A stretch of 64,000 bases of DNA from a virus (IMGVR_UViG_3300035670_000040:1-64000); one strand, 5' to 3'. Counted from the first letter of the stretch, positions 13,279-64,000 are shown. The notes: generated by a model from the letters alone, not told the origin. Numbers and translations: made by a program.

Positions 13279-15996
13279 ATGGCTACAAAAATCATACAAT
13301 CACCTAGAAGAATCCAATCACCCGGTGTTCAAATCACAGAAATAGATCTAACAAGAAGACCAACTTCTCAAAGACCAATAAGACCAGCTGCGATGGTTGC
13401 TGGCTTTGCCGCTCAAGGACCAACTGATGAAATTGTTAAAATAACAAGCATGGCCCAGTTTAATACTGTTTTTGGTCTTCCAGAAACAGCAGCTGAAAGA
13501 TATCTATCCCACACAGTTGAACAATTAGTTTCTTCTGGATCTGATGTTCTTGTTACAAGACTTCCTTATGGTAAAAATGCTGGAGAAGGAATTCAAAACT
13601 ATTATAGTGCATTATTTTTCCCAATCGTTCCTCATGGAAAAACTTATGGTGAAGCCGAAACATATTATGTTCTTCCACCAAAATCTGTTCTTTTAAGTGA
13701 AGATGCATATGAAACTCAAATTAAAGACAGAAATATTGCATGGACAAATAATTTTCAGGTTTCAACTGTAGAAAACAAAACATTCAATTTAACATGGGAT
13801 GCTGCTAGTGCCATATTTCTAGATATTGTAAATGATTTAAGAGTTACAGATGTTCCAGTAGTAAACAGTTATTTTGGACCATCTGAGACTGTTTATTCTG
13901 GTCCTGTACTATTACCAAGTCAATTAAATTTATCCAGACCATTAACATCATTTAATATTCAGAGAGCTTTTGAACAAAGAATAAACGAGGTAGTTGATAG
14001 ACTAGCATACAACACAAATAACCAAACAAATCAATTAGATACACAAGTTGTTGGAGTTCCCACTGCTTGGGCATCTGTAACTACGAACTTATCTCTAACA
14101 AGTTTTGCTGAACAACTTTCAGCAAACAGTTCATCTAGAAATTTATTTAATATTCCTATTAAATATACTTTAAATTATCTAACAAATAATTCTGATAATA
14201 TTGATAAATTTACAATAAACAGTGTAGATGATATTAATAAATCAGGAATAATAATTGTTAATAGTGATAAACTAAGAAATAATGATTTATTCGAAGGGTT
14301 CTATGTTGGATTAACAGATAATTCCGATGACAGTCCTTATACAGATTTCAAATCAGTTACTGCATTAAAAGCAGTTAATTCTATTTCTGCTATTGATGGA
14401 ATGCCTCTTTCTGATTCAACAAAGGCTATTCAAACATTCTTTACAGTACCAGAAGAGAGATTGAATTTTACTTTATCTGAATCATATTCCAGTATTAATT
14501 TCCAGAGTGTTTCTGAAAAGATGGCTAGATGGCCCTCATATGATTTTTCACAGGATTCATTTAATGATTGCTTAAAGTTATTTGTCTTTAAAATTAATAC
14601 TTCAACAAACTTACAAGATGCTATTACTTTAAATACACCATCAACCGTTGAAGCTTATGTTGGATCTCTGTATTCACAAAGAAAACAAAATAACCCAAAT
14701 GGTGGTAGACTTGTGAATTTCTTTATTGAAAATAAAGTAGAAAACAATTCAAATTCCAGAATTAAGATGGTTGTAAATCCAAATATATCAGAATCTGGAA
14801 CATGGACTGATTCTTTTGCAATGCCAACAAAGAGAGTTATAATTTCTGATGCTGCAAAGTCTCTTTGGGCTACTGGTATATATACACCAACTACTATAAC
14901 TGAACAGAATAAAAGAATAGGAAATCTAATGTTAAAATTAGATAGAACATTCCAGATGTATGAATTGACTGAGAACGAAACAAAAAATATTGATATTGTT
15001 TGTGAAGCAGGACTCGGTACAATTAATGCTGGTGTTAAATATCAAAAGACTATCACTGGGAATATTGATCAAGAAACTTTTGATGATACTATTCCAGTTG
15101 ATATTACTAATTTAAAACAAATTCCAAAAAATTATAGAGAATATCTACAAACACCAGATATTGTAAGAGATTCTTATGTAGATATTATAAAAAGATTTAG
15201 GGCAGTTGCTCAACAGAGAAAAAATCATGTATTTATATCAGATCCTTTAAGATATATATTTGTTAAGGGTATTAATTCTAAAGCAACTGATAAAAAATCA
15301 TTTAATTTTGTTAATGATATCTTTAGACCATTACAGAATTCATATGCAAAAGTTGGTAGATCTACATATATGTCTGTTTATGCGAACTGGATGAGAAGGT
15401 ATGATGCTGCTTCTGATGAATTTACATGGGTTCCGCCTTCTGGTTTTGTTGGAAAAATAATGCTTAATGCAAAGAAAAGAGCACCTTGGACTGCACCAGC
15501 AGGATTTAATTATGGAAGACTTTCCGGTGTTGCTGATTTGGCTATAAATCCAAATCAAAGACAAAGAGATATTCTTTATAGGTCTTCATATAACCCAGTT
15601 GTAAACTTCCCAAGAGAAGGTATGGTTGTTTATGGTCAAAAAACATTTATTAATTATCAAACAGCTTTTGATAGATTGAATGTAAGAAATCTATTTTTAC
15701 ATTTAGAAAAAGAAGCAACCAGAATATTGGATAGATTTGTATTTGAACCAAACACAATACCTACCAGAAATAGAGTTATCTTACGTTTAACACCTATTTT
15801 TGAAAGAGCTAAAACACGTCAAGGTGTCTATGATTATAGACTTGTTTGTGATGAAAGAAACAATACACCAGATGTAATTGATAGAAATGAATTAAGATTG
15901 GCTGTTTATATACAACCCGTAAGAACAGCAGAATTTATATTAGCTGACTTCATTGCAACAAGAACTGGTACAGATCTTGATGATCTTATAGGCTAA
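13279..15996 (+). CDS. 18: Contractile tail sheath protein
   Basis: 905 aa; the subunit of the contractile sheath that drives the tube through the host envelope. The N-terminus (SPGVQITEIDLT, then PAAMVAGFAAQGPTDE) is the handshake region of sheath proteins. The C-terminal fold has FINYQTAFDRLNVRNLF, LEKEATRILDRFVFEPN and RLAVYIQPVRTAEFI, the conserved sheath domain. The protein is much longer than T4 gp18 (659 aa); the extra length lies in the middle (about residues 120-560), where surface domains are inserted in other sheaths. It starts the plus-strand tail operon. Confidence 0.95.
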   Translation: MATKIIQSPRRIQSPGVQITEIDLTRRPTSQRPIRPAAMVAGFAAQGPTDEIVKITSMAQFNTVFGLPETAAERYLSHTVEQLVSSGSDVLVTRLPYGKNAGEGIQNYYSALFFPIVPHGKTYGEAETYYVLPPKSVLLSEDAYETQIKDRNIAWTNNFQVSTVENKTFNLTWDAASAIFLDIVNDLRVTDVPVVNSYFGPSETVYSGPVLLPSQLNLSRPLTSFNIQRAFEQRINEVVDRLAYNTNNQTNQLDTQVVGVPTAWASVTTNLSLTSFAEQLSANSSSRNLFNIPIKYTLNYLTNNSDNIDKFTINSVDDINKSGIIIVNSDKLRNNDLFEGFYVGLTDNSDDSPYTDFKSVTALKAVNSISAIDGMPLSDSTKAIQTFFTVPEERLNFTLSESYSSINFQSVSEKMARWPSYDFSQDSFNDCLKLFVFKINTSTNLQDAITLNTPSTVEAYVGSLYSQRKQNNPNGGRLVNFFIENKVENNSNSRIKMVVNPNISESGTWTDSFAMPTKRVIISDAAKSLWATGIYTPTTITEQNKRIGNLMLKLDRTFQMYELTENETKNIDIVCEAGLGTINAGVKYQKTITGNIDQETFDDTIPVDITNLKQIPKNYREYLQTPDIVRDSYVDIIKRFRAVAQQRKNHVFISDPLRYIFVKGINSKATDKKSFNFVNDIFRPLQNSYAKVGRSTYMSVYANWMRRYDAASDEFTWVPPSGFVGKIMLNAKKRAPWTAPAGFNYGRLSGVADLAINPNQRQRDILYRSSYNPVVNFPREGMVVYGQKTFINYQTAFDRLNVRNLFLHLEKEATRILDRFVFEPNTIPTRNRVILRLTPIFERAKTRQGVYDYRLVCDERNNTPDVIDRNELRLAVYIQPVRTAEFILADFIATRTGTDLDDLIG

Positions 15997-19092: not shown

Positions 19093-22053
19093 ATGGCAAC
19101 AGATGTATCGGGAATAGTTTCTGAAATTCAAAAAGTTTTTGGTGATAATTTAAAAAATCCATCAACTATTCTTAATTCGTTTTTTGAATTTTTATCAAAA
19201 AACGATCCAGAAGTTTTATCTATTCAAAAAGAATTTAAAAGGAAATATTTAATACCATTATTAAAATCTTGGGATAAATTAACCAAAGATGTTGATAAAA
19301 ATGCACTTAAAGCATCAGATGTTTTTAATAAACTTGACAAATTCTTCTCTTCTTTTGAACAAGAAACAAAAAATATTATAAATCAAAACAATAAAAAATT
19401 TAATAATACTATTGAAGATATTAAAAATGTTTATTTGAATCAAAATAAATCTGAAAATACTCAACAACCTACAGTTCTTCAAAATAATAGTGATAAAAAT
19501 AGTTATGAAAACATTTTAAATACATCTGATTCACCAACAGAAGAAAAATTAATAGAGAAAAAGACACCAGAAACTATTATTTCTTTCAGCTTACCCACAA
19601 TAAGTTTAATAGATAAGTGGATAAACAAATTATCAAACGATAATGCAGAAAATTTAAAAAGATTAAACCTCGGACAAACAAAACAAGGTAGTATATTGGA
19701 TAATTTATTGGATTTAGCTACGTCTCTTCCTGTATTATTTGCAGCAATTGGTGGTGCATCCGCTCTTGCTGGAATGTTTTGGCCTGAAATCAAAGAATAT
19801 ATTAATGAAAAGTTTGGTGATAAAGCAGCAGAAGTCTTTGATCAGTTTCAAGGAACAGTAAATGGATTAACAAAATTTATATCTATTGGTGGTCTTCAAG
19901 TTACTGTTGGTAAAACATTCCAAACATTAGGTTCTTTGCTTGGTACTGTTGCTGATGACTTTGCTAGTGGTGCTAAAAAAATATTTGGTGGTATTTTTGA
20001 TAATTTATTGGGTGTTGGTGGAACTGCTGCTGCTGGTGCTGCTGATAATGTTGCAGGGGCAGCTATAGGAAAGGGACTAGGTTCTACATTACAAAAAGGA
20101 GCTTCTCTTTTATTCAGAGGATTATCAATAACAGCATTGAGAGCAATTCCATTAATTGGAACTATCATTAGTTTTTCTCAAGCTTGGGGTCGCTTCAAGC
20201 AAGGTGAGTATGCACAGGGTGTAATTGATATTGGTGCAGGACTAGCCGCATTTGTGCCCGGTATTGGTACGGGTCTTTCTATAGGTCTAAGTGTTATGAA
20301 CGCTATTATAGACTTTAAAAGTCCGGAAGAAAAAAAGGAATTAATACAGAAAACATTTAATATTGCCGGAATGTTAACAAAGGGTGTTGGTGTTTATGCC
20401 AAATTAATGGGTGGACCAGTGTTGAAAAGAATTCCCTTTTTAGGATCTTTATTTAATTTCGCAAGTGCAAAAGAAAAATTTGATCAAAATAATATATTAG
20501 GAGGAACATTGGATCTTGCTTCTGGTATTGCTGCTTTTGTGCCCGGTGTAGGATTGCCTGTCTCTATAGGATTAGATATTCTAAGTTCAATTATAGGAAC
20601 ACAAGAAGCAAAAGAAAGTGGTGTTCAACAAACAGGGTTTGATTATGCTAAAATGGCACTAAAAGCTACGAAATTTGTTACAAAATTAGGTAAACCTTTT
20701 TTTAAAAGAATACCTCTTCTTGGAAGTTTATTAAGTTTTGCAGATGCATGGGATAATTTTCAAAATGACAATATATTAGCTGGTTCTCTAGATCTTGTTT
20801 CTGGTGTTGCCAATTTGTTTCCAGGTATAGGAACAGGACTTTCTTTAGGTGTTGATGTTTTAAATACTCTCATGTCAACAAAGGGAGAGGACGGAAAAAC
20901 AAGATTTCAGGCTGTTGGTGATTGGTTTTCTAAAGTTTGGAAGTGGGTAAAAGAAACGCCTGTTATGAAAACCTTTTTTGATCTATATGATGGTATAGAA
21001 GCTGTATTCATGGGTGATATGCCTAGAGCATTTAAAACATTATCAAATATTCCTCTAATTGGTGGAATGTTTGAATCAATAGGAAAAGCATTAAACTTAG
21101 ATACAAAAAATTCTCCTACATTGGAATCATCTAAACCATTTAGAACAAATAATACACAAAAAATAATAGATAATTTACCAACAGAATATAATAAGAAAGA
21201 AGAAGATAAATTAATAGAACAAGACAAAGAACTTATTTCTAAAAGAAAAAAAATAGAAGAAGATAAGGTAAAAACTGAACAACAACCAGTTAAAGATAGA
21301 TCGGAAGCAGATGCTAAAAACAAAAAAATACAAGAACTCAATAAAGATTTAGATAACCTTGTTAACGAAAGACATGATTTACTAATTCAAATTAATAGAC
21401 AAAAAGAATTAAAAGAAGGTAAAAAATTCGAAAATAAAAAACCAAAAGAGGATAATTTATTAGAGAATAATCAATCATTAAATGATAATAATATACAAGA
21501 AGAAGACAATTTAAAATCAAAACTACAAGACAAGGTAAGTCAACTTGCAAAGATACAAAAAGAAAAATCCAGAGATCCAAAAAGATTGGAAAAAATAACT
21601 TCATTAAGAAAAGAGATAGAGGAATTAACAAATTCTGTTCATGCAAATGATTTTGATGAAACTAATATGTTTAATTTACCAGTAAAACAAAAAAACTTTT
21701 CTTATCAACCTAGTTCTGGTCCTAATTTTGGTTCTGGTAAGTATGTTTTTCTTCCTAAAGATGAAAGAATAACATCTTTTAATGATAAAGGACCGATAAA
21801 TGATACATTTAAACAACTTAATAAAAACATAGAAAAGTTAACAGAAAAAATGTTAGGTGTTACAAATGAAATTTCTGCATTGGCACTAAAACAACAAAAC
21901 ATGAATAATAGTCAATCACCAACTATTATAAATAACAACAACACAACTCAGTCAACAAATAAATTGGATATGTCTTCTACTAGAGATCAAAATATGATGG
22001 CAAGATATGATTATATTAGAAACAATTCATATAACAGAACATCATATACATGA
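19093..22053 (+). CDS. Tail tape-measure protein with glycine-zipper repeats
   Basis: 986 aa. It sits between the hub chaperones and the tube-cap protein, where T4 has gp29-type tape-measure functions. Residues 1-150 are helical and polar, and 200-350 are glycine- and alanine-rich and hydrophobic. Three copies of a roughly 94-residue unit follow (about 350, 445 and 538), each with RIPLLGSLLSFADAW-like and LDLVSGVANLFPGIGTGLS-like hydrophobic hairpins, and a partial fourth lies near 650. Residues 690-850 are charged coiled coil. The hydrophobic zippers could form the membrane channel when the protein is ejected. Length should set tail length. Confidence 0.75.
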   Translation: MATDVSGIVSEIQKVFGDNLKNPSTILNSFFEFLSKNDPEVLSIQKEFKRKYLIPLLKSWDKLTKDVDKNALKASDVFNKLDKFFSSFEQETKNIINQNNKKFNNTIEDIKNVYLNQNKSENTQQPTVLQNNSDKNSYENILNTSDSPTEEKLIEKKTPETIISFSLPTISLIDKWINKLSNDNAENLKRLNLGQTKQGSILDNLLDLATSLPVLFAAIGGASALAGMFWPEIKEYINEKFGDKAAEVFDQFQGTVNGLTKFISIGGLQVTVGKTFQTLGSLLGTVADDFASGAKKIFGGIFDNLLGVGGTAAAGAADNVAGAAIGKGLGSTLQKGASLLFRGLSITALRAIPLIGTIISFSQAWGRFKQGEYAQGVIDIGAGLAAFVPGIGTGLSIGLSVMNAIIDFKSPEEKKELIQKTFNIAGMLTKGVGVYAKLMGGPVLKRIPFLGSLFNFASAKEKFDQNNILGGTLDLASGIAAFVPGVGLPVSIGLDILSSIIGTQEAKESGVQQTGFDYAKMALKATKFVTKLGKPFFKRIPLLGSLLSFADAWDNFQNDNILAGSLDLVSGVANLFPGIGTGLSLGVDVLNTLMSTKGEDGKTRFQAVGDWFSKVWKWVKETPVMKTFFDLYDGIEAVFMGDMPRAFKTLSNIPLIGGMFESIGKALNLDTKNSPTLESSKPFRTNNTQKIIDNLPTEYNKKEEDKLIEQDKELISKRKKIEEDKVKTEQQPVKDRSEADAKNKKIQELNKDLDNLVNERHDLLIQINRQKELKEGKKFENKKPKEDNLLENNQSLNDNNIQEEDNLKSKLQDKVSQLAKIQKEKSRDPKRLEKITSLRKEIEELTNSVHANDFDETNMFNLPVKQKNFSYQPSSGPNFGSGKYVFLPKDERITSFNDKGPINDTFKQLNKNIEKLTEKMLGVTNEISALALKQQNMNNSQSPTIINNNNTTQSTNKLDMSSTRDQNMMARYDYIRNNSYNRTSYT

Positions 22054-25313: not shown

Positions 25314-25934
25314 ATGAACCAATCTATTTTAAATAAATCAAGAAATGATAAATTCGCTCTTTTGTTTGGATTACCTGTTGGTATAAAACAAAAGATTGAC
25401 CCTGTTTTAATGAGCGATTTTAATGACAGTAAGGTGGAATTAAGTATATTTGGATTATCTGTTCCTGATATAACAATTCCACCTATATCATTAGGATTTA
25501 GTGGTCAAACATATAAAACAAGTTCTTTTTCAAGACCAGATTTCAGTCCATTAGAAGTAAAATTTTTTATAGATAATGGATATCATAATTATTATATTTT
25601 ATGGAAATGGTTAAATGAATTTAATGATTCAAAATATTCCACAAGTGATATAGTTACTACACAAGAAATACCACATATTGGTGATTCCGATATGGAAAAT
25701 CCATTTTCAGATTATGTAACTAATTTAAATTTAATTGTAATGGATGAATATAATAATAAATTAATGAAAATAATTTATGAAGACGCATTTATAACAAATT
25801 TAGGAGGAATAAGTTATTCACATCAAGATGGAGCAGAAATAATTGGTTCAGTGTCTTTTGCATATAACCAACTTCATATTGAAATGGAACACAATGTGAA
25901 TGATTGTAAAGTAAATTGTCATGACAAAATATGA
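25314..25934 (+). CDS. Tube-fold baseplate protein
   Basis: 206 aa. The C-terminal LIVMDEYNNKLMKIIYEDAF followed by ITNLGGISYSHQDGAEI and a GSVSFAYNQLHIEM strand is the standard end of tail-tube-like domains. The N-terminus has SGQTYKTSSFSRPDFSPLEVKF, another tube-fold hallmark. It is probably a tube-proximal baseplate ring protein, gp54- or gp48-type. It overlaps the hub gene by 14 nt and follows the terminase by 2 nt, so it is strongly coupled. Confidence 0.6.
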   Translation: MNQSILNKSRNDKFALLFGLPVGIKQKIDPVLMSDFNDSKVELSIFGLSVPDITIPPISLGFSGQTYKTSSFSRPDFSPLEVKFFIDNGYHNYYILWKWLNEFNDSKYSTSDIVTTQEIPHIGDSDMENPFSDYVTNLNLIVMDEYNNKLMKIIYEDAFITNLGGISYSHQDGAEIIGSVSFAYNQLHIEMEHNVNDCKVNCHDKI

Positions 25935-27833: not shown

Positions 27834-27847
27834 ATTAAGTTTTATTA

Positions 27848-27855
27848 TATAAATA
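27848..27855 (+). promoter_or_regulatory. Late promoter before the 605-aa gene
   Basis: Exact TATAAATA, 14 nt before ATG 27870; predicted leader about 8 nt. Confidence 0.6.
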
Positions 27856-27869
27856 TCTTATATAATAAT

Positions 27870-29687
27870 ATGGTGATTACTTTTATAAATCCAGACGACG
27901 GGAAAGAACATAAAACATCTGACAATAACCCTCTTACATCACTAAGTTATTTAGGTAATTCTACTCCTATACAACAACCTAATACTAGTAATTTAACATA
28001 TAATCCAAATGTAGGAATACAAAGTTTTACTAATAGTAGTACTGTAACAGTTCCTCCAGCAAATGCTAATGTTTCTGGTGAAAATTATATTAATGAAACT
28101 GTCAAAAAAGCTGAACCATTAAATAAATTCGAAACAGCAGTTAATAACTTAACTGATCCATTAAAGTATACAGAACCATTAACACCACAAAATTTTAACT
28201 TAGATCCAAACAAAGTAACATCAGGATTGGGTTCTGGTCCAGAAACAAATAAAAAAATAAAAGGTGATCCTAAAATAGTAGAAGCAGTAGCAAATAAAAA
28301 GTCAGATGCTACAAAAGAAAAACAAATTGGAGGTAGTTCTAGTAATGTTTCTATAAACATTGTTGATGTAGGTAAGGCGGCAAGATTAAACCTAGACGAT
28401 CTTCTTGCTCTTTCGACATATGTTTCTGGTCCAACTAATTTAAATTTACTAGCTGCATGGGTTTACCTTTTATATAACGGCTCAGGTGCTGTCAATAAAA
28501 CAGTTAGTATGGAAAACAATCCAAATAAAAATGATCAACCTATTACAATCTCTGGAAATATGTTGATGTATATGTGGACTAAAGGAAATTCTATTGTAAA
28601 GGGATATTTTCACAAAGGAATTACAAAAATTTTTAAAAAAACTCCAGCATTTAAAGATAAGTTTTTTGAAGATATTGGTGAAGCTGGAACAACAATGCTT
28701 TCAAATAGTGAAAGATTACCAAGCAATCCTGTGTCTGGATCATCAAAGCATACACCATCATTGGTTGAAAGAATGTTGAATAAAATTCATCCTAAATTTT
28801 CACAAGAATTGGAAAAGTATGTGAATGTTCTTAAAGGAAAAGTTTATTTGGCATTACCATCAGGTATTTTAGGATCAATTCAATATGCTATTAGTTATAT
28901 AAATGGAATTGTAACAGCTGTTGCACAACAAATAAATGAAATTTATCAAGGAGCATTAAAAGCGATAAGAGGATTTATTGCAGCAATTGATTCTATTATG
29001 GGAATGATAATGCAAACTATTTTATCATTGGTCGATAAAATTATTCCTCTTGAAATAATTTGTTTAATTTTAGATATTATATCTATGTTTGTTGGTGATT
29101 TAACATTTATAACAAATTTCTTTTCTCATTCAGCTAAAATATCAGATGTTTTAAAAGCATTTAATATAGGTGATCCTAATATTGCAAATTTTTTAAGTGA
29201 TCCTATAAACTCATTAAAAGATTTTCTTCCTGATGATATTAAAAATATAGTTAGCATAGCAGACAGTGTTGCAAATGACCCTATGGGATATTTAGGAGGT
29301 GTGTTGAGTGATTATGGTTATTCTTATATGGCAAAATATTTAGAAGGAGATATTATGGGTGGAGTTCTTGATCAATTTGGATCTCAAGCACCTATTCTAT
29401 ATCCTATTTCTGGTATTATGAAAAAATATGGAGTTTCTGGAAAAATTCAATTAACAGATCCAAACGAACCTTCTCCAAATGTAGTTTTACCAGCAATCAT
29501 TACAGAATTTAGAAAAGATGTTAAAAAAACATTTGATGGATTAGGAAGATCAACAGAAAAATTACAAAATACAATAGACCAAAAAGTTTATGATATAGGA
29601 CAAGGTGCTTCTGATACATTTGGTCTTGGAAATATAAGCGAAAGATCAAATGATCTTGGGTTTGGAACAACAAACACATCAGGTTAA
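27870..29687 (+). CDS. Large baseplate-region structural protein, unknown
   Basis: 605 aa. Residues 1-160 are low complexity (T, N, P and K rich). The middle (about 330-470) holds long hydrophobic helices (LPSGILGSIQYAISYINGIV, AIDSIMGMIMQTILSLVDKI, LICLILDIISMFV-like), and the C-terminus is polar with Gly/Ser. The size, late promoter and place between hub and spike genes make it a virion or baseplate protein. The helical hydrophobic core recalls tape-measure or hub-plug proteins. No T4 homologue recognised. Confidence 0.6.
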   Translation: MVITFINPDDGKEHKTSDNNPLTSLSYLGNSTPIQQPNTSNLTYNPNVGIQSFTNSSTVTVPPANANVSGENYINETVKKAEPLNKFETAVNNLTDPLKYTEPLTPQNFNLDPNKVTSGLGSGPETNKKIKGDPKIVEAVANKKSDATKEKQIGGSSSNVSINIVDVGKAARLNLDDLLALSTYVSGPTNLNLLAAWVYLLYNGSGAVNKTVSMENNPNKNDQPITISGNMLMYMWTKGNSIVKGYFHKGITKIFKKTPAFKDKFFEDIGEAGTTMLSNSERLPSNPVSGSSKHTPSLVERMLNKIHPKFSQELEKYVNVLKGKVYLALPSGILGSIQYAISYINGIVTAVAQQINEIYQGALKAIRGFIAAIDSIMGMIMQTILSLVDKIIPLEIICLILDIISMFVGDLTFITNFFSHSAKISDVLKAFNIGDPNIANFLSDPINSLKDFLPDDIKNIVSIADSVANDPMGYLGGVLSDYGYSYMAKYLEGDIMGGVLDQFGSQAPILYPISGIMKKYGVSGKIQLTDPNEPSPNVVLPAIITEFRKDVKKTFDGLGRSTEKLQNTIDQKVYDIGQGASDTFGLGNISERSNDLGFGTTNTSG

Positions 29688-29693
29688 TTTATT

Positions 29694-32600
29694 ATGAGTT
29701 ATGTAAAAGATCCAATTTATGGAAATCATTTAGGAATCGTAGTAAACGATGCAAGTTTTGATCCTGAACAAAGAGGTAGGGTTCAGGTATGGATTCCTTA
29801 TTTATCAAATACTTTACATTCTAATTGGAATGAAAAGATGGATGATAAAAAATTTAAACATATTCATGAATCAGGTGCATTGACTCCTGAATTAGTAGAA
29901 GAATTAAAAAATGTTTTACCTTGGGCTGAATGTGCTGGACCAATTATGGGTGGTGGAACATCTGCAACATACAATCCATCAACAGGAATAACAGATACAA
30001 ATCCACACAGGACGTTTGTAAAACCAGTTTCTAGGATATCAAATACAACAAAAGAAAATGTTAAGTATGCTTATTCTGACGGAACTACAAGAAATAAACC
30101 TATTCAAGATGATTTAATGAATAAATTGTCTGAAGCAGCTTACGATGCATATGGTCCAGATGCAAAAGTTGTAATTTATAGTGGAGGTCAAGATGCAATA
30201 GGTGAAGGTGAAAGAAGAACAGGTACAACCAGACACGATGATGGATTTGCTGCTGATGTTTACATTGAAAAAAACGGAAGATACTTAGCAAATGAAGAAA
30301 TGGCTCCAATGATTCAATATTGGTTAGCTAATAAAAACGGTGGTGTTGGTTATGGAATGTTAAAAGATGGTCAAAAAGCTGGATTACATTTAGATATTAG
30401 AACCCCAGAACAAGGTCAACAGTTTGCTAGTACTTATTGGGCTTATCAAGGAGAGCAAAATGATGAACCTGCTATAGTTCAAGCAAAAAATTCTGGTAAA
30501 AATGGAGTTTTACCAGAATTGCAGAATTCTCAGGTTACAAAAACAGCTGCTGATACAGCAGAAGTTGCTGGAACAACGGTAAATGCAGCAAAAACAGCAA
30601 AAGAAGCAGACTTTACACCACAGGACATTTCTTCCTCAACAGGATTTAGTCAAAATTTAGTAAATGCTATTAAAGTATGGGAAGGATTTAAAGGTGAAGC
30701 TGGACAAGATAATACATTAATAACTGGTGGATATGGTACTGAGGCTCCAACTGGAACAAAATATACACCAGAACAAGCTGAAGCAGCACTAATAAATGAT
30801 TTACAAACCAAAAGATTACCAATTTTAGAAAGAAAATTAGAAAAAAACAATATTACAGTAACTCAGGCTCAAAAAGAAGCTTTACTTTCCTTTGCTTTTA
30901 ATAGAAATCCAGAAAAAGGGTTAGATGACGTATTAGTTGGATCCTCATCTTGGGATGATATATCAGCTAAAATGAGAGAAAATTTTGCTGGACCAGATAT
31001 AAGAAATAACCCTAATCACCCAGATTATAATGGTTTAAAAAATAGAAGAGAAAAAGAAATAGAATACGCAAATACAAATGGTGCTAAAGGAGGAAATTTT
31101 AATTCTAATGGATCAGATTCTTCTGTTATGGTTAATCCAATACCAAATTTTAACCCATCAGTAATTCCTGCTGGTGTTGCTGGAGCACAACCATCTGGAT
31201 TTATTTCAACACCAAAAATAGGTGCAAAGGTTTTTGTTTTCTTTTTAGCTGGTGATATTCAAAAACCAATTTATTTTGCTGGTTTATTGGAAAAAGAATC
31301 ATATCAAAAAGTTCAATCTGTATCTAGTCCAGAAGTTCAAGTAACAAATGAAAATGTACATAGAATAAATGAGGTACATGGTTCCATTAATTCAACAAAC
31401 ATGTTTGGAAACATTAATGGAGTTCCTGTGGAAGAACAACAGGTGTCACTTGGTAAACAAGGATCATTGTATCAGTCAGGATCTTATGTTCATGAGATAG
31501 CTGCTGCTGGTAAAACAACTACTTGTTACGGAGATAATCATAATCAATCTCTTGGTCATGAAATCAGAAATGTAAAAATGACCTATCAATTATCATCGGA
31601 AGATCTTAATTTTAGTGCAGGTTTTAATGGAACAGAAAAAGAAATAAATGAAAAATTAAAAGCACAAGAAGATATTCATAAGATTTCTAAAGAAATTCAA
31701 GAAGAAAAAATAAAAGAGATTGAAAGTAATGCAAAAAACGGAGAAAAGGTTCCATGTCCTTTATGTTCTACTTCACATGCAGTTGATAGAGCAAGTGCAT
31801 TTAGCAAAAAAGTAATTTCTTTTTTAAGTAGAATATTAAAAATTCCATATTTTTCTTATGTAGTTGATGTTGTAAATTTTTTAAATAATGTTTTAGTTGT
31901 TCCATTTTGTTCCATCGTACCCGGTAGTGCATTGGGTAAATGTGGAAACGAAGAATGTGAAAATGGATTTGTTCCTTCTCCACAAAAACCAATAGAAGAT
32001 GCAAATAAAAAGGCAATACAAAAATTAGTTTCAAAACAAAAAGAAATAGGTGAATTGGAAAAAAAATTAGGGAGTGGTGGATGTTATTCTGTTACGGCAT
32101 TGAAAGATGTTGTAATTTCTGCTGGTGGTCCTATGAATGATGCAAAATGTTATGCTGAGACGACAAATATATCAGAACCTATTGGTGGACAAACAAAAGG
32201 AGAGGATGGAAAGGGTAGTACTCAAACAATAAGAGCTAGATCTGCAAAAAGTTTAAAAGATGTTCCATATATCCCCCCTGTGCAGTATCCAGGTGGTAAT
32301 ATACTACTTAAAGGTGGTAATGCTGTAAAAATAATCGCGGGAGCACCAGGTATTGAATTGAATACAATAGGAAAAATATCATTAAATTGTGGTTCTATAG
32401 AAATTTTATCATCAGATGGGAAATTGTTACTTGGATCAAAAAATCACACAACTCTAAGTGGCAAAGTTGTAACGATAAATGCTAATGACAAAACAAAAGA
32501 AGGTGGTGTTAATATAAATTCTCCACATATGATATGCAAGGGATTCACTGCAACCGGAGATATTGGTATAAAGGGTGGAGCTAGAATTGATGGTGAATTA

Positions 32601-33281
32601 TCAATACCTTATTTAAATACTGTTGCTCAAAGAATGCAGTGTGATGATGGTATGTCACCAGATCAAAGAATTCCTTTTGCGAATTGGGCCATAGGTGCAG
32701 CACAATCAAATGACACGGCAAACACAGTAAGGCTTGCTTTGACACATTATTCCATGACTGGTTCGTTATTATTGCTTTCAAATATTATAAAATTTGTAAT
32801 GGAAAATTATAATACAATCCTTACAAATTGCATACTTGAACCATCAATAACGGGTATATATTATGGTTTTTGTTTAAATTCAGCAGGACCTGGTTCTTCT
32901 TGGGGATATATTCAAAACTTTGCACACAATCATATGGAAGATCCCAAACCACATCATCATGATTATATTATGCCAAAAGGTACATATTACGATGATATTG
33001 CTGGGGTAAATGATTCTGCTGTTGAACCAAACGAGGTTCCTACAAGGGCAAGAAAAAACGGATTAGGACCAGAAGGTGGACCGAAATCATTAGCTGGTTG
33101 TGGTGGTTTTGGTGGTTGGGCTGGTTCTTCTGGTGGAAGAAAAGCTAAATTAAACTCCTTTGGTTTAGACAACGATTTAAAAGGATTTAACGGTACTGTT
33201 ATTAATAAAAACAACACTAAAGTAGTATATGAAAAAGATGGTAATGTTCGTTTGACAGTAGATGAAACTCCTTGTGATTAA
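29694..33281 (+). CDS. 5: gp5-like spike with two peptidoglycan hydrolase domains
   Basis: 1195 aa. Residues 1-85: gp5-type OB-fold (DPEQRGRVQVWIPYL, WAECAGPI). About 120-250: M15-like zinc peptidase pattern TRHDDGFAADVYI (H181, D188) and GLHLDIR (H232, D234). About 315-470: GH24/T4-lysozyme-like domain with E330, D339 and T344, then ALLSFAFN and LKNRREKEIEYA. The OB-fold part resumes at PKIGAKVFVFFLAGD. About 680-770: CPLC and CGNEEC cysteine pairs. About 866-980: VgrG/gp5 beta-helix (GGNILLKGGNAVKI, KISLNCGSIEILSS). About 1078-1092: histidine-rich NHMEDPKPHHHDY, perhaps metal binding. It pierces the envelope and digests peptidoglycan during ejection. Confidence 0.85.
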   Translation: MSYVKDPIYGNHLGIVVNDASFDPEQRGRVQVWIPYLSNTLHSNWNEKMDDKKFKHIHESGALTPELVEELKNVLPWAECAGPIMGGGTSATYNPSTGITDTNPHRTFVKPVSRISNTTKENVKYAYSDGTTRNKPIQDDLMNKLSEAAYDAYGPDAKVVIYSGGQDAIGEGERRTGTTRHDDGFAADVYIEKNGRYLANEEMAPMIQYWLANKNGGVGYGMLKDGQKAGLHLDIRTPEQGQQFASTYWAYQGEQNDEPAIVQAKNSGKNGVLPELQNSQVTKTAADTAEVAGTTVNAAKTAKEADFTPQDISSSTGFSQNLVNAIKVWEGFKGEAGQDNTLITGGYGTEAPTGTKYTPEQAEAALINDLQTKRLPILERKLEKNNITVTQAQKEALLSFAFNRNPEKGLDDVLVGSSSWDDISAKMRENFAGPDIRNNPNHPDYNGLKNRREKEIEYANTNGAKGGNFNSNGSDSSVMVNPIPNFNPSVIPAGVAGAQPSGFISTPKIGAKVFVFFLAGDIQKPIYFAGLLEKESYQKVQSVSSPEVQVTNENVHRINEVHGSINSTNMFGNINGVPVEEQQVSLGKQGSLYQSGSYVHEIAAAGKTTTCYGDNHNQSLGHEIRNVKMTYQLSSEDLNFSAGFNGTEKEINEKLKAQEDIHKISKEIQEEKIKEIESNAKNGEKVPCPLCSTSHAVDRASAFSKKVISFLSRILKIPYFSYVVDVVNFLNNVLVVPFCSIVPGSALGKCGNEECENGFVPSPQKPIEDANKKAIQKLVSKQKEIGELEKKLGSGGCYSVTALKDVVISAGGPMNDAKCYAETTNISEPIGGQTKGEDGKGSTQTIRARSAKSLKDVPYIPPVQYPGGNILLKGGNAVKIIAGAPGIELNTIGKISLNCGSIEILSSDGKLLLGSKNHTTLSGKVVTINANDKTKEGGVNINSPHMICKGFTATGDIGIKGGARIDGELSIPYLNTVAQRMQCDDGMSPDQRIPFANWAIGAAQSNDTANTVRLALTHYSMTGSLLLLSNIIKFVMENYNTILTNCILEPSITGIYYGFCLNSAGPGSSWGYIQNFAHNHMEDPKPHHHDYIMPKGTYYDDIAGVNDSAVEPNEVPTRARKNGLGPEGGPKSLAGCGGFGGWAGSSGGRKAKLNSFGLDNDLKGFNGTVINKNNTKVVYEKDGNVRLTVDETPCD

Positions 33282-62765: not shown

Positions 62766-63044
62766 TTTTTTCTCCAACTCATAGAGTTCTTTCAATGCAT
62801 CTTCAAATGAATATGTTTTTAAACCAATAGAAGTTTCTGGTTTTATTGTAGGATTTGTTTTTTCTTCTTCTGACAATATAGAATTGAATGTATTGATTAA
62901 ATCGTTCTCAAGTTTTTGATTCTGTGGATCTCTTTCAAAAAAAGGAGAAAATGAAGGACTAGATGAAGGAGTTAAAATTATTGAATTTTTACCCTTTACT
63001 TGTGAAGAATAAACTTGTTCAAGGCTTTTATGCACAGCTTTCAA
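62751..63044 (-). CDS. Small protein with LEQVY leader motif
   Basis: Up to 97 aa; no ATG is available. TTG at 63044 or GTG at 63035 (giving VHKSLEQVYSSQV) must be the start. The N-terminal SLEQVYSS echoes LEQVYESI of the gene at 2521. The middle is S/P-rich and the C-terminus acidic-helical (FEDALKELYELEKK). Overlaps the lysozyme stop, so it is probably translationally coupled. Confidence 0.5.
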   Translation of the reverse strand: MKAVHKSLEQVYSSQVKGKNSIILTPSSSPSFSPFFERDPQNQKLENDLINTFNSILSEEEKTNPTIKPETSIGLKTYSFEDALKELYELEKKSNNC

Positions 63045-63645
63045 TTAATTTTGCTTCGGTTTCTCTTCTTTCAAGAAGTCCATCAAGACCTTTTCCAACC
63101 CAAAGTCTTTTCATTTTTCTTACTTCTTTTGCAATCCCTTTATAATCTTTAAAAGGTATCAATTCTTTAATATTTCTCATTTCCAGTCTAGATTGACCAT
63201 TTAAACTTGTTCCTCTATTAAAAACAATCGAGACAATAGCACCATAGGCATCTTCTTTTAGCTCTGTAGCCCCCAGAAACGTTTTATTTGTTAGTTTGGT
63301 AAACTTGGGCCATGTTATACTGTAAAAAATATCTAGAGCTTTTTCCCAATCAACAGTTATTCCTGCATTTCTCAGAATTCTAGTATATTCTCTTCCTTTT
63401 TCACCAGTCTTACCAACAGAACCTTGAATTAATTCAATTTGATTTTGTGGAAGAAAATTAAATATTTTTGAAAGTTCTGTTTTAGTATAATATGCACAAT
63501 CAATTCCTATTGCTATTGTTGGTCCAGATGCTCCTTTTGGCCATGTAAATTTAGATAAGAATTTATCATAATAAGATTTTCCACCACCTACTTCGTATTT
63601 TAAGAGCAAGTCAAGTGTTTTTGGAGAAGGTTTATCGTAATTCAT
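63028..63645 (-). CDS. Endolysin, lysozyme-fold (pesticin-type) muramidase
   Basis: 205 aa. LDLLLKYEVGGGKSYYDKF supplies the catalytic glutamate, SGPTIAIGIDCAYY the following strand with an acidic residue, and GAIVSIVFNRGTSLNG...EMRNIKEL the helical half, as in pesticin/T4-lysozyme-like enzymes. No signal peptide, so a holin is needed. The start at 63645 is chosen for its GGAAG site; an ATG at 63651 abuts it. Overlaps the membrane-protein gene by 14 nt, forming a lysis-type pair. Confidence 0.75.
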   Translation of the reverse strand: MNYDKPSPKTLDLLLKYEVGGGKSYYDKFLSKFTWPKGASGPTIAIGIDCAYYTKTELSKIFNFLPQNQIELIQGSVGKTGEKGREYTRILRNAGITVDWEKALDIFYSITWPKFTKLTNKTFLGATELKEDAYGAIVSIVFNRGTSLNGQSRLEMRNIKELIPFKDYKGIAKEVRKMKRLWVGKGLDGLLERRETEAKLIESCA

Positions 63646-64000
63646 AGTCATCTTCCTTTGAATTACTTGTAATTACTGTTATTTCTTCAAATTTTTCTGT
63701 TTTATTTTCTGATTTAAAATCAACATTTGAATCAGATTTATATCTAAAGTCTAATAATGTCTGAACACCTAAATAACTACCGATTATTACTGCTAATATT
63801 TTTATTGTTTCAACAAATATTGTAACAAATGCAGATGTTATTGTTGCTGACATTCCAGATGTTAAAAATAAAACAAAAATACTAACCGCATAAAACACAG
63901 AAAGTATTATTACAGAACAAAAAACAACAAAAAATTTTTTTGATGCTAAAAAGTTTATATTACTCAAGTCTTTTTGATATTCTGTTGGTGTATTTGGTGG
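63632..64000 (-). CDS. Membrane protein, holin candidate (5' end beyond window)
   Basis: The frame is open to the right edge; the first visible codons read PPNTPTEYQKDLSNIN and no ATG occurs, so the start lies outside (a TTG at 63967 is the only internal candidate). Two transmembrane segments (KKFFVVFCSVIILSVFYAV and a second with TIKILAVIIGSYLGV) precede a charged C-terminal tail. Overlap with the endolysin gene suggests a holin, but it could be another virion membrane protein. Confidence 0.6.
   Translation of the reverse strand, partial: PPNTPTEYQKDLSNINFLASKKFFVVFCSVIILSVFYAVSIFVLFLTSGMSATITSAFVTIFVETIKILAVIIGSYLGVQTLLDFRYKSDSNVDFKSENKTEKFEEITVITSNSKEDDYELR

Follow-up and report, generated by a model that had tools for sequence, protein, structure and literature searches.

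Results

A gp5-type spike gene in the tail module of a T4-like phage

The window, that is, the entire 64,000-nucleotide stretch of viral DNA analyzed here (IMGVR_UViG_3300035670_000040), harbors an ATG-initiated ORF that runs without interruption and starts at the same position in all relatives (Table 1). The gene is found 3' of the tail-tube gene (phrog_45, 25314–25934), with unassigned tail genes also preceding it, and the full virus record of 130,820 bases also includes tail sheath and large terminase genes and T4-like replication genes encoding UvsX, a DnaB-type helicase, DNA polymerase, and an SbcC-like subunit. The encoded 1195-residue protein very probably forms the central spike (gp5/VgrG type) with which a T4-like contractile phage punctures the cell, and one loop of its OB domain holds a two-slot hydrolase insert that comprises an M15-fold zinc peptidase (slot 1) and a GH24 muramidase (slot 2).

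Other features of this record are worth recording. The 605-residue gene directly upstream of the spike has an N-terminal part (27834–28242) that is replaced or strongly diverged between relatives that are otherwise 87 to 93% identical, and constitutes a second variable patch of the tail module. A 986-residue protein (19093–22053) gives a local PHROG match (residues 430–496) to peptidase/endolysin families and no Pfam match. The tail sheath protein (13279–15996) is 905 residues long, with the 496-position sheath profile spread over residues 13 to 898, and seems to contain large insertions. A second GH24 protein of 207 residues (63028–63651, minus strand) is probably an ordinary endolysin.

Table 1. 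Features of the spike gene and its insert, numbered from the first nucleotide of the window
Feature	Coordinates	Strand	Evidence
Central spike gene, gp5 type, 1195 aa	29694–33281	+	ORF; PF04717 and PF00959 above cut-off; full-length relatives
OB (Phage_base_V) domain, first half, residues 1–108, conserved scaffold	29694–30017	+	69–100% identity to all relatives; 64/108 columns invariant
Slot 1, predicted zinc peptidase domain of MepK-like M15 type (LAS fold), residues 109–280	30018–30533	+	DNA breakpoints vs L002 and L003–L005; Rhizobium phage homologues; Foldseek; hhalign to MepK
Putative zinc-ligand motif H-x6-D, H181-D-D-G-F-A-A-D188	30234–30257	+	Same motif as YcbK/MepK (PMC3927764)
Putative second zinc-ligand motif H-x-D, G-L-H232-L-D234-I	30381–30398	+	G-x-H-x-D invariant in slot-1 homologues
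Linker between slots, 69 nt, residues 281–303, TKTAADTAEVAGTTVN...	30534–30602	+	blastn segment, 85.5% identity to L003–L005
Slot 2, GH24 lysozyme domain, residues 304–478	30603–31127	+	PF00959, phrog_7, Foldseek; breakpoints vs L003–L005 and L014/L017
GH24 catalytic triad E330/D339/T344	30681–30725	+	Aligned with T4 gp5 E184/D193/T199 (PMC3004832)
OB domain, second half, residues 479–535	31128–31298	+	PF04717 at 495–531; 43% identity and hhalign 96% to uninterrupted OB homologue
Beta-rich shaft and C-terminal region, residues 536–1195	31299–33281	+	Scaffold 50–92% identical
Zinc-ribbon-like four-cysteine site, C688-P-L-C691 ... C750-G-N-E-E-C755	31755–31958	+	Invariant in seven distinct spikes
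Tip candidate of the initial annotation, HNHMEDPKPHHHDY, residues 1078–1091	32925–32966	+	Only H1078 and D1090 invariant

The insert splits the OB domain

The Phage_base_V profile (PF04717) is matched above cut-off, but the match begins only at profile position 39, whereas a 171-residue protein of Alishewanella phage Slicko01 matches positions 1 to 71 without a break. Residues 2 to 28 of the Slicko01 protein align with spike residues 6 to 33, and its LPWAQYA sequence (41–47) aligns with LPWAECA (75–81), with the first OB half of the spike corresponding overall to Slicko01 residues 2 to 47; Slicko01 residues 44 to 85 align with spike residues 493 to 534 (hhalign, 96%; BLAST, 43% identity). Approximately 5 residues in the Slicko01 OB protein correspond to ≈420 in the spike. 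This alignment to an uninterrupted OB domain, together with the half-only PF04717 match, therefore places both predicted hydrolases inside the OB fold, in the loop between its halves. In T4 gp5, LPW lies at position 52, and the counterpart of the second half runs from about position 70. An AlphaFold model of residues 1 to 545 is too poor to resolve the OB domain, and thus the split is read from the sequence. We assign the N-terminal OB domain of a gp5/VgrG-type spike on the profile match for its second half and the homologue alignment for its first.

Two predicted cell-wall hydrolases

The PF00959 (Phage_lysozyme) match in slot 2 extends over residues 328 to 455 (E=3.2e-9; profile positions 2–125 of 125) with a score of 37.6 bits relative to a cut-off of 22.3 bits, which excludes chance. 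Slot 2 also matches the phrog_7 endolysin family (E=1e-19), and the best 13 Foldseek matches of the slot-2 model are all GH24 lysozymes or endolysins, the nearest structures being of the P22/R21/SpmX type rather than T4 lysozyme.

The M15-like domain proper of slot 1 comprises residues 131 to 277. Homologues are found in Rhizobium phage tail proteins (35–37% identity, E=3e-11), and H181-x6-D188 and H232-x-D234 are kept both in these and in a 73% identical relative (L014), as part of a set of invariant motifs (SGGQ, RTG, R-H-x2-G-x-A-x-D, and G-x-H-x-D). An hhalign comparison with Escherichia coli MepK is collinear, including GGVGY, H-x-D, and all three zinc ligands, with a weak pairwise score (P=0.0017) and ≈30% identity over 89 columns; the zinc ligands of YcbK have been assigned as H-x6-D plus a later His (PMC3927764). 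The AlphaFold model of slot 1 is of low confidence (pLDDT 46.6, pTM 0.50), yet the best 25 PDB matches that Foldseek returns for it are all Hedgehog/M15 folds (Hedgehog domains, ChiX, and LysB4); in the viral library, the same model matches phage proteins at E=1e-5, with D-Ala-D-Ala carboxypeptidases ranked lower. In Pfam searches, slot 1 of the window reaches no family, M15 included, and slot 1 of L014 matches VanY below the cut-off (E=0.014). Searched against PDB sequences, the slot-1 family gives weak matches to LdcB, chance matches to enterotoxins, and nothing else. The E-x-x-H acid/base of VanY/VanX-type enzymes is absent from slot 1, which has A-G-L-H at this position and the H-x-D form as in MepK. 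Conservation in the Rhizobium phages and purifying selection (dN/dS of about 0.15) exclude chance as the source of this domain, and its catalysis and exact M15 subfamily are predictions because of the lack of a Pfam match and the poor model.

The initial annotation had proposed two cell-wall hydrolases on one central spike, and both are supported here. The H..D...H.D zinc peptidase pattern that it placed at about residues 120 to 250 is found as the two slot-1 motifs, and the T4-lysozyme-like domain placed at about residues 315 to 470 corresponds to the Pfam-supported GH24 domain, with its E-D-T triad in place. A structure model lacking the peptidase fold had been named as the refuting outcome; the slot-1 model is of low confidence, but with its Hedgehog/M15 matches it does not refute the proposed peptidase. 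As a further observation, two Rhizobium phage “putative tail proteins” (L007:10192–12693 and L008:10123–12792) harbor a MepK-like peptidase domain that their annotation lacks and that follows a Phage_lysozyme2 domain.

Slots are exchanged separately between conserved borders

The spike is found on eight relative contigs, three of which (L003, L004, and L005) have the same insert, giving six distinct spikes and, with the window, seven. These seven display six slot combinations (Table 2). Slot 1 is one of three M15 types or Cys-peptidase-like, and slot 2 is GH24, SLT-like, 3D/YuiC-like, or without an assigned family, where SLT, 3D, and Cys-peptidase are labels read from motifs that profile searches did not confirm. 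Searches of the records with PF05951, PF08291, and PF06725 gave no match; PF01464 matched one gene only, elsewhere on the L018 contig and not in the spike. The putative Cys-peptidase-like slot 1 of L018 and L030 matches no family or PDB entry. Slot 2 of L030 (residues about 310–480) matches phrog_6631, a family with no annotated function, and resembles YuiC; phrog_6631 may represent lytic transglycosylases of the 3D type. Scans of genome contigs revealed no bacterial or prophage relative.

Table 2. Slot combinations among the seven distinct spikes; assignments by motif are candidate labels
Combination	Spike	Slot 1	Slot 2
1	Window, L001	MepK-like M15	GH24
2	L002	Hedgehog-like M15 (PF01085 above cut-off)	GH24
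3	L003/L004/L005	VanY-like M15 (subthreshold; SxHxxGxAxD...EKWHFE)	Domain without family assignment, 3D-like motifs by eye
4	L014	MepK-like M15	SLT-like motifs (ETGFNP, GYLQ)
5	L018	Cys-peptidase-like motifs (GRC, GH, SDN)	SLT-like (ESGFNP)
6	L030	Cys-peptidase-like	3D-like (YuiC in each of the top three PDB sequence matches, E 0.4–0.8)

At the DNA level, the boundaries are sharp. Over about 20 kb, the window and L002 are 91 to 93% identical, but their blastn alignment ends at 30017 and restarts at 30535; the alignment with L003–L005 (86–88%) stops at 30018, keeps 30534–30602, and resumes at 31128; and that with L014/L017 loses 30590–31131 only, that is, slot 2. The 69-nucleotide linker stays even where both slots differ. 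Slot 1 has changed with slot 2 retained between the window and L002 and between L014 and L018, and slot 2 has changed with slot 1 retained between the window and L014 and between L018 and L030. Protein identities follow the same borders: the window spike (P0001) and that of L002 share 100% of the N-terminal scaffold, 23% of slot 1, 94% of the linker, 57% of slot 2, and 92% of the C-terminal scaffold, with values for L014 of 77% (N-terminal), 73% (slot 1), 23% (slot 2), and 51% (C-terminal). Across the seven spikes, invariant columns number 64/108 in the N-terminal scaffold, 0/172 in slot 1, 7/23 in the linker, 3/175 in slot 2, and 247/717 in the C-terminal scaffold. Both slots are under purifying selection, with dN/dS values between the window and L001 of 0.14 (slot 1) and 0.49 (slot 2), and of 0.15 for slot 1 between the window and L014.

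These comparisons, which draw on seven distinct spikes, identify the insert region as a two-slot exchange site in which the scaffold is conserved and the slots are replaced separately. A rule of “always one peptidase and one glycan cutter” would in part be a reading of motifs. We also considered whether slot 1 had recently been transferred between the window and L014 and dropped this reading, since the slot-1 identity is close to that of the N-terminal scaffold and common descent suffices.

The shaft and the candidate tip

The C-terminal region is probably a beta-helix, as judged from its repetitive Gly/beta pattern; the structure models are of single chains, with residues 546 to 1195 outside them. 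The initial annotation had pointed to cysteine pairs at about residues 680 to 770, and these are present as C688/C691 and C750/C755. All four are invariant in 7/7 spikes, and the shaft may thus plausibly hold a structural zinc site, with metal binding itself a prediction. The CPxC and CxNxxC arrangement resembles a zinc ribbon, which is unusual in a beta-helical spike.

The same annotation had proposed a metal-binding HxH tip in the histidine stretch NHMEDPKPHHHDY at residues 1079 to 1091, and neither conservation nor position supports this claim. H1087 and H1089 are replaced by Ile and Val in both L014 and L018 (NQ...IHVDY), and H1088 is Asn in L030 (HNHDY). Approximately 105 residues remain C-terminal of the stretch, unlike in apex HxH sites; in spikes of the P2 gpV/phi92 gp138 type, an iron-loaded HxH lies at the C-terminal apex, whereas here the HxH is neither conserved nor apical. 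T4 has a PAAR tip, gp5.4, whereas a search for a PAAR gene (PF05488) gave no match in the 130,820-base record, which may be incomplete; the spike may therefore form its own tip.

Discussion

We propose that tail contraction would drive a trimeric spike across the outer envelope and that the OB collar would then present each enzyme in three copies about the shaft; the peptidase would cut peptide cross-links and the muramidase glycan strands, so that a hole opens for the tail tube. Recombination would exchange whole catalytic domains and leave the spike undisturbed, because the two ends of the insert are near each other in the OB barrel. Relatives have made such exchanges one slot at a time, with slot 1 of a peptidase type and slot 2, as far as readable, of a glycan-cutting type. 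There is, in our judgment, an even chance that the OB loop serves as a dedicated platform of two sockets, where a peptide cutter and a glycan cutter are replaced independently, matching host wall chemistry or escaping hydrolase inhibitors, on an otherwise constant puncturing machine.

The reason for swapping might lie mainly in evasion of tail-hydrolase inhibitors, such as Spackle-like superinfection exclusion proteins or host lysozyme inhibitors, rather than in wall chemistry. We regard this as a possible but minority explanation: the gp5 lysozyme domain is bound and inhibited by T4 Spackle (PMC7677548), and the slots differ while the remaining tail is 87 to 93% identical, which suggests closely related hosts; however, slot 1 is swapped too, not the lysozyme alone. 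This alternative concerns motive and is compatible with the two-socket anatomy.

It is unlikely that slot 1 is instead a zinc-bearing, noncatalytic peptidoglycan-binding domain of the M15 fold, leaving the lysozyme alone to cut. The closest fold matches are Hedgehog N-domains, which keep the fold without known peptidase action, and the missing E-x-x-H and above-threshold M15 profile match fit such a role. Against this, both slot-1 motifs are invariant in homologues and collinear with those of MepK, an annotated peptidoglycan L,D-endopeptidase, and the named peptidoglycan peptidases ChiX and LysB4 are also among the fold matches.

Still less probable is the arrangement of the initial annotation, in which two hydrolases between the OB domain and the helix are joined by a metal-loaded HxH tip and serve hosts with unusual peptidoglycan. 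Both hydrolases exist, and the missing PAAR protein would leave room for a self-made tip, but the substituted, nonapical histidines argue against an HxH tip. The enzymes do precede the beta-helix in linear order, as had been stated; their placement does not hold, since the Slicko01 alignment puts the insert within the OB domain, a feature overlooked at the time, as was the exchangeable nature of both cassettes. That the cassette pattern is a chimeric assembly artefact is highly improbable even though every relative is a metagenomic contig, given intact reading frames in all of them, recovery of the L003-type cassette in three different samples and of the window's cassettes in a second sample, breakpoints at domain borders with the linker kept, and purifying selection in the slots.

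If the two-socket proposal is correct, a contractile phage changes its wall-opening enzymes like tool bits while the spike remains unaltered, and it becomes testable whether phage entry is limited by peptidoglycan chemistry or by tail-hydrolase inhibitors. The conserved borders and linker would show where an OB domain of VgrG/gp5 type naturally accepts insertions and inform how spikes tolerate cargo.

Dual hydrolases at the center of a myophage baseplate, two-domain virion lysins, and domain mosaicism are known already; in the openly accessible literature searched, we found no report of a spike whose OB domain holds two hydrolases that are exchanged one slot at a time. Endolysins, tail spikes, and tail fibers undergo widespread and ongoing shuffling of domains (PMC10684548), and a two-slot insert nested in the OB domain of a spike is not described in the accessible part of that work. 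The “putative tail proteins” of Rhizobium phages RHph_TM21B and RHph_I42 (QIG77576.1 and QIG74761.1) share the slot-1 domain (35–37%) beside Phage_lysozyme2 and are an independent instance of peptidase and glycan-cutter pairing; they differ in being larger, in lacking an OB domain, and in placing the glycan cutter first and the peptidase second. E. coli MepK/YcbK, a peptidase of the M15 family (PMC3927764), shares H-x6-D, GGVGY, and H-x-D in that order, here found in a phage tail. Two-domain virion-associated lysins such as HydH5 (PMC3150257) likewise combine a peptidase/amidase and a lysozyme domain in one virion protein, but HydH5, from staphylococcal phage phiIPLA88, is not a spike, and its domains are not nested in an OB fold. 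In Anabaena phage A-1(L), as far as the accessible part of the report describes, the hub protein gp15 carries glycan-cutting and peptidase domains at the center of the myophage baseplate and is active on host cells (PMC10966104); its enzymes reside on a gp27-like hub, with the spike gp25 bearing none, whereas here they are nested in the OB domain of the spike, and cassette exchange goes unmentioned in that part of the report, whereas here the slots are exchanged. Finally, T4 gp5 (PMC3004832; NC_000866) shares the OB domain, a GH24 domain with the E-D-T triad, a beta-rich C-terminal shaft, and a likely baseplate hub role; it carries one enzyme, positioned between the OB domain and the helix (PMC3004832), whereas the spike characterized here is predicted to carry two, inside the OB loop itself.
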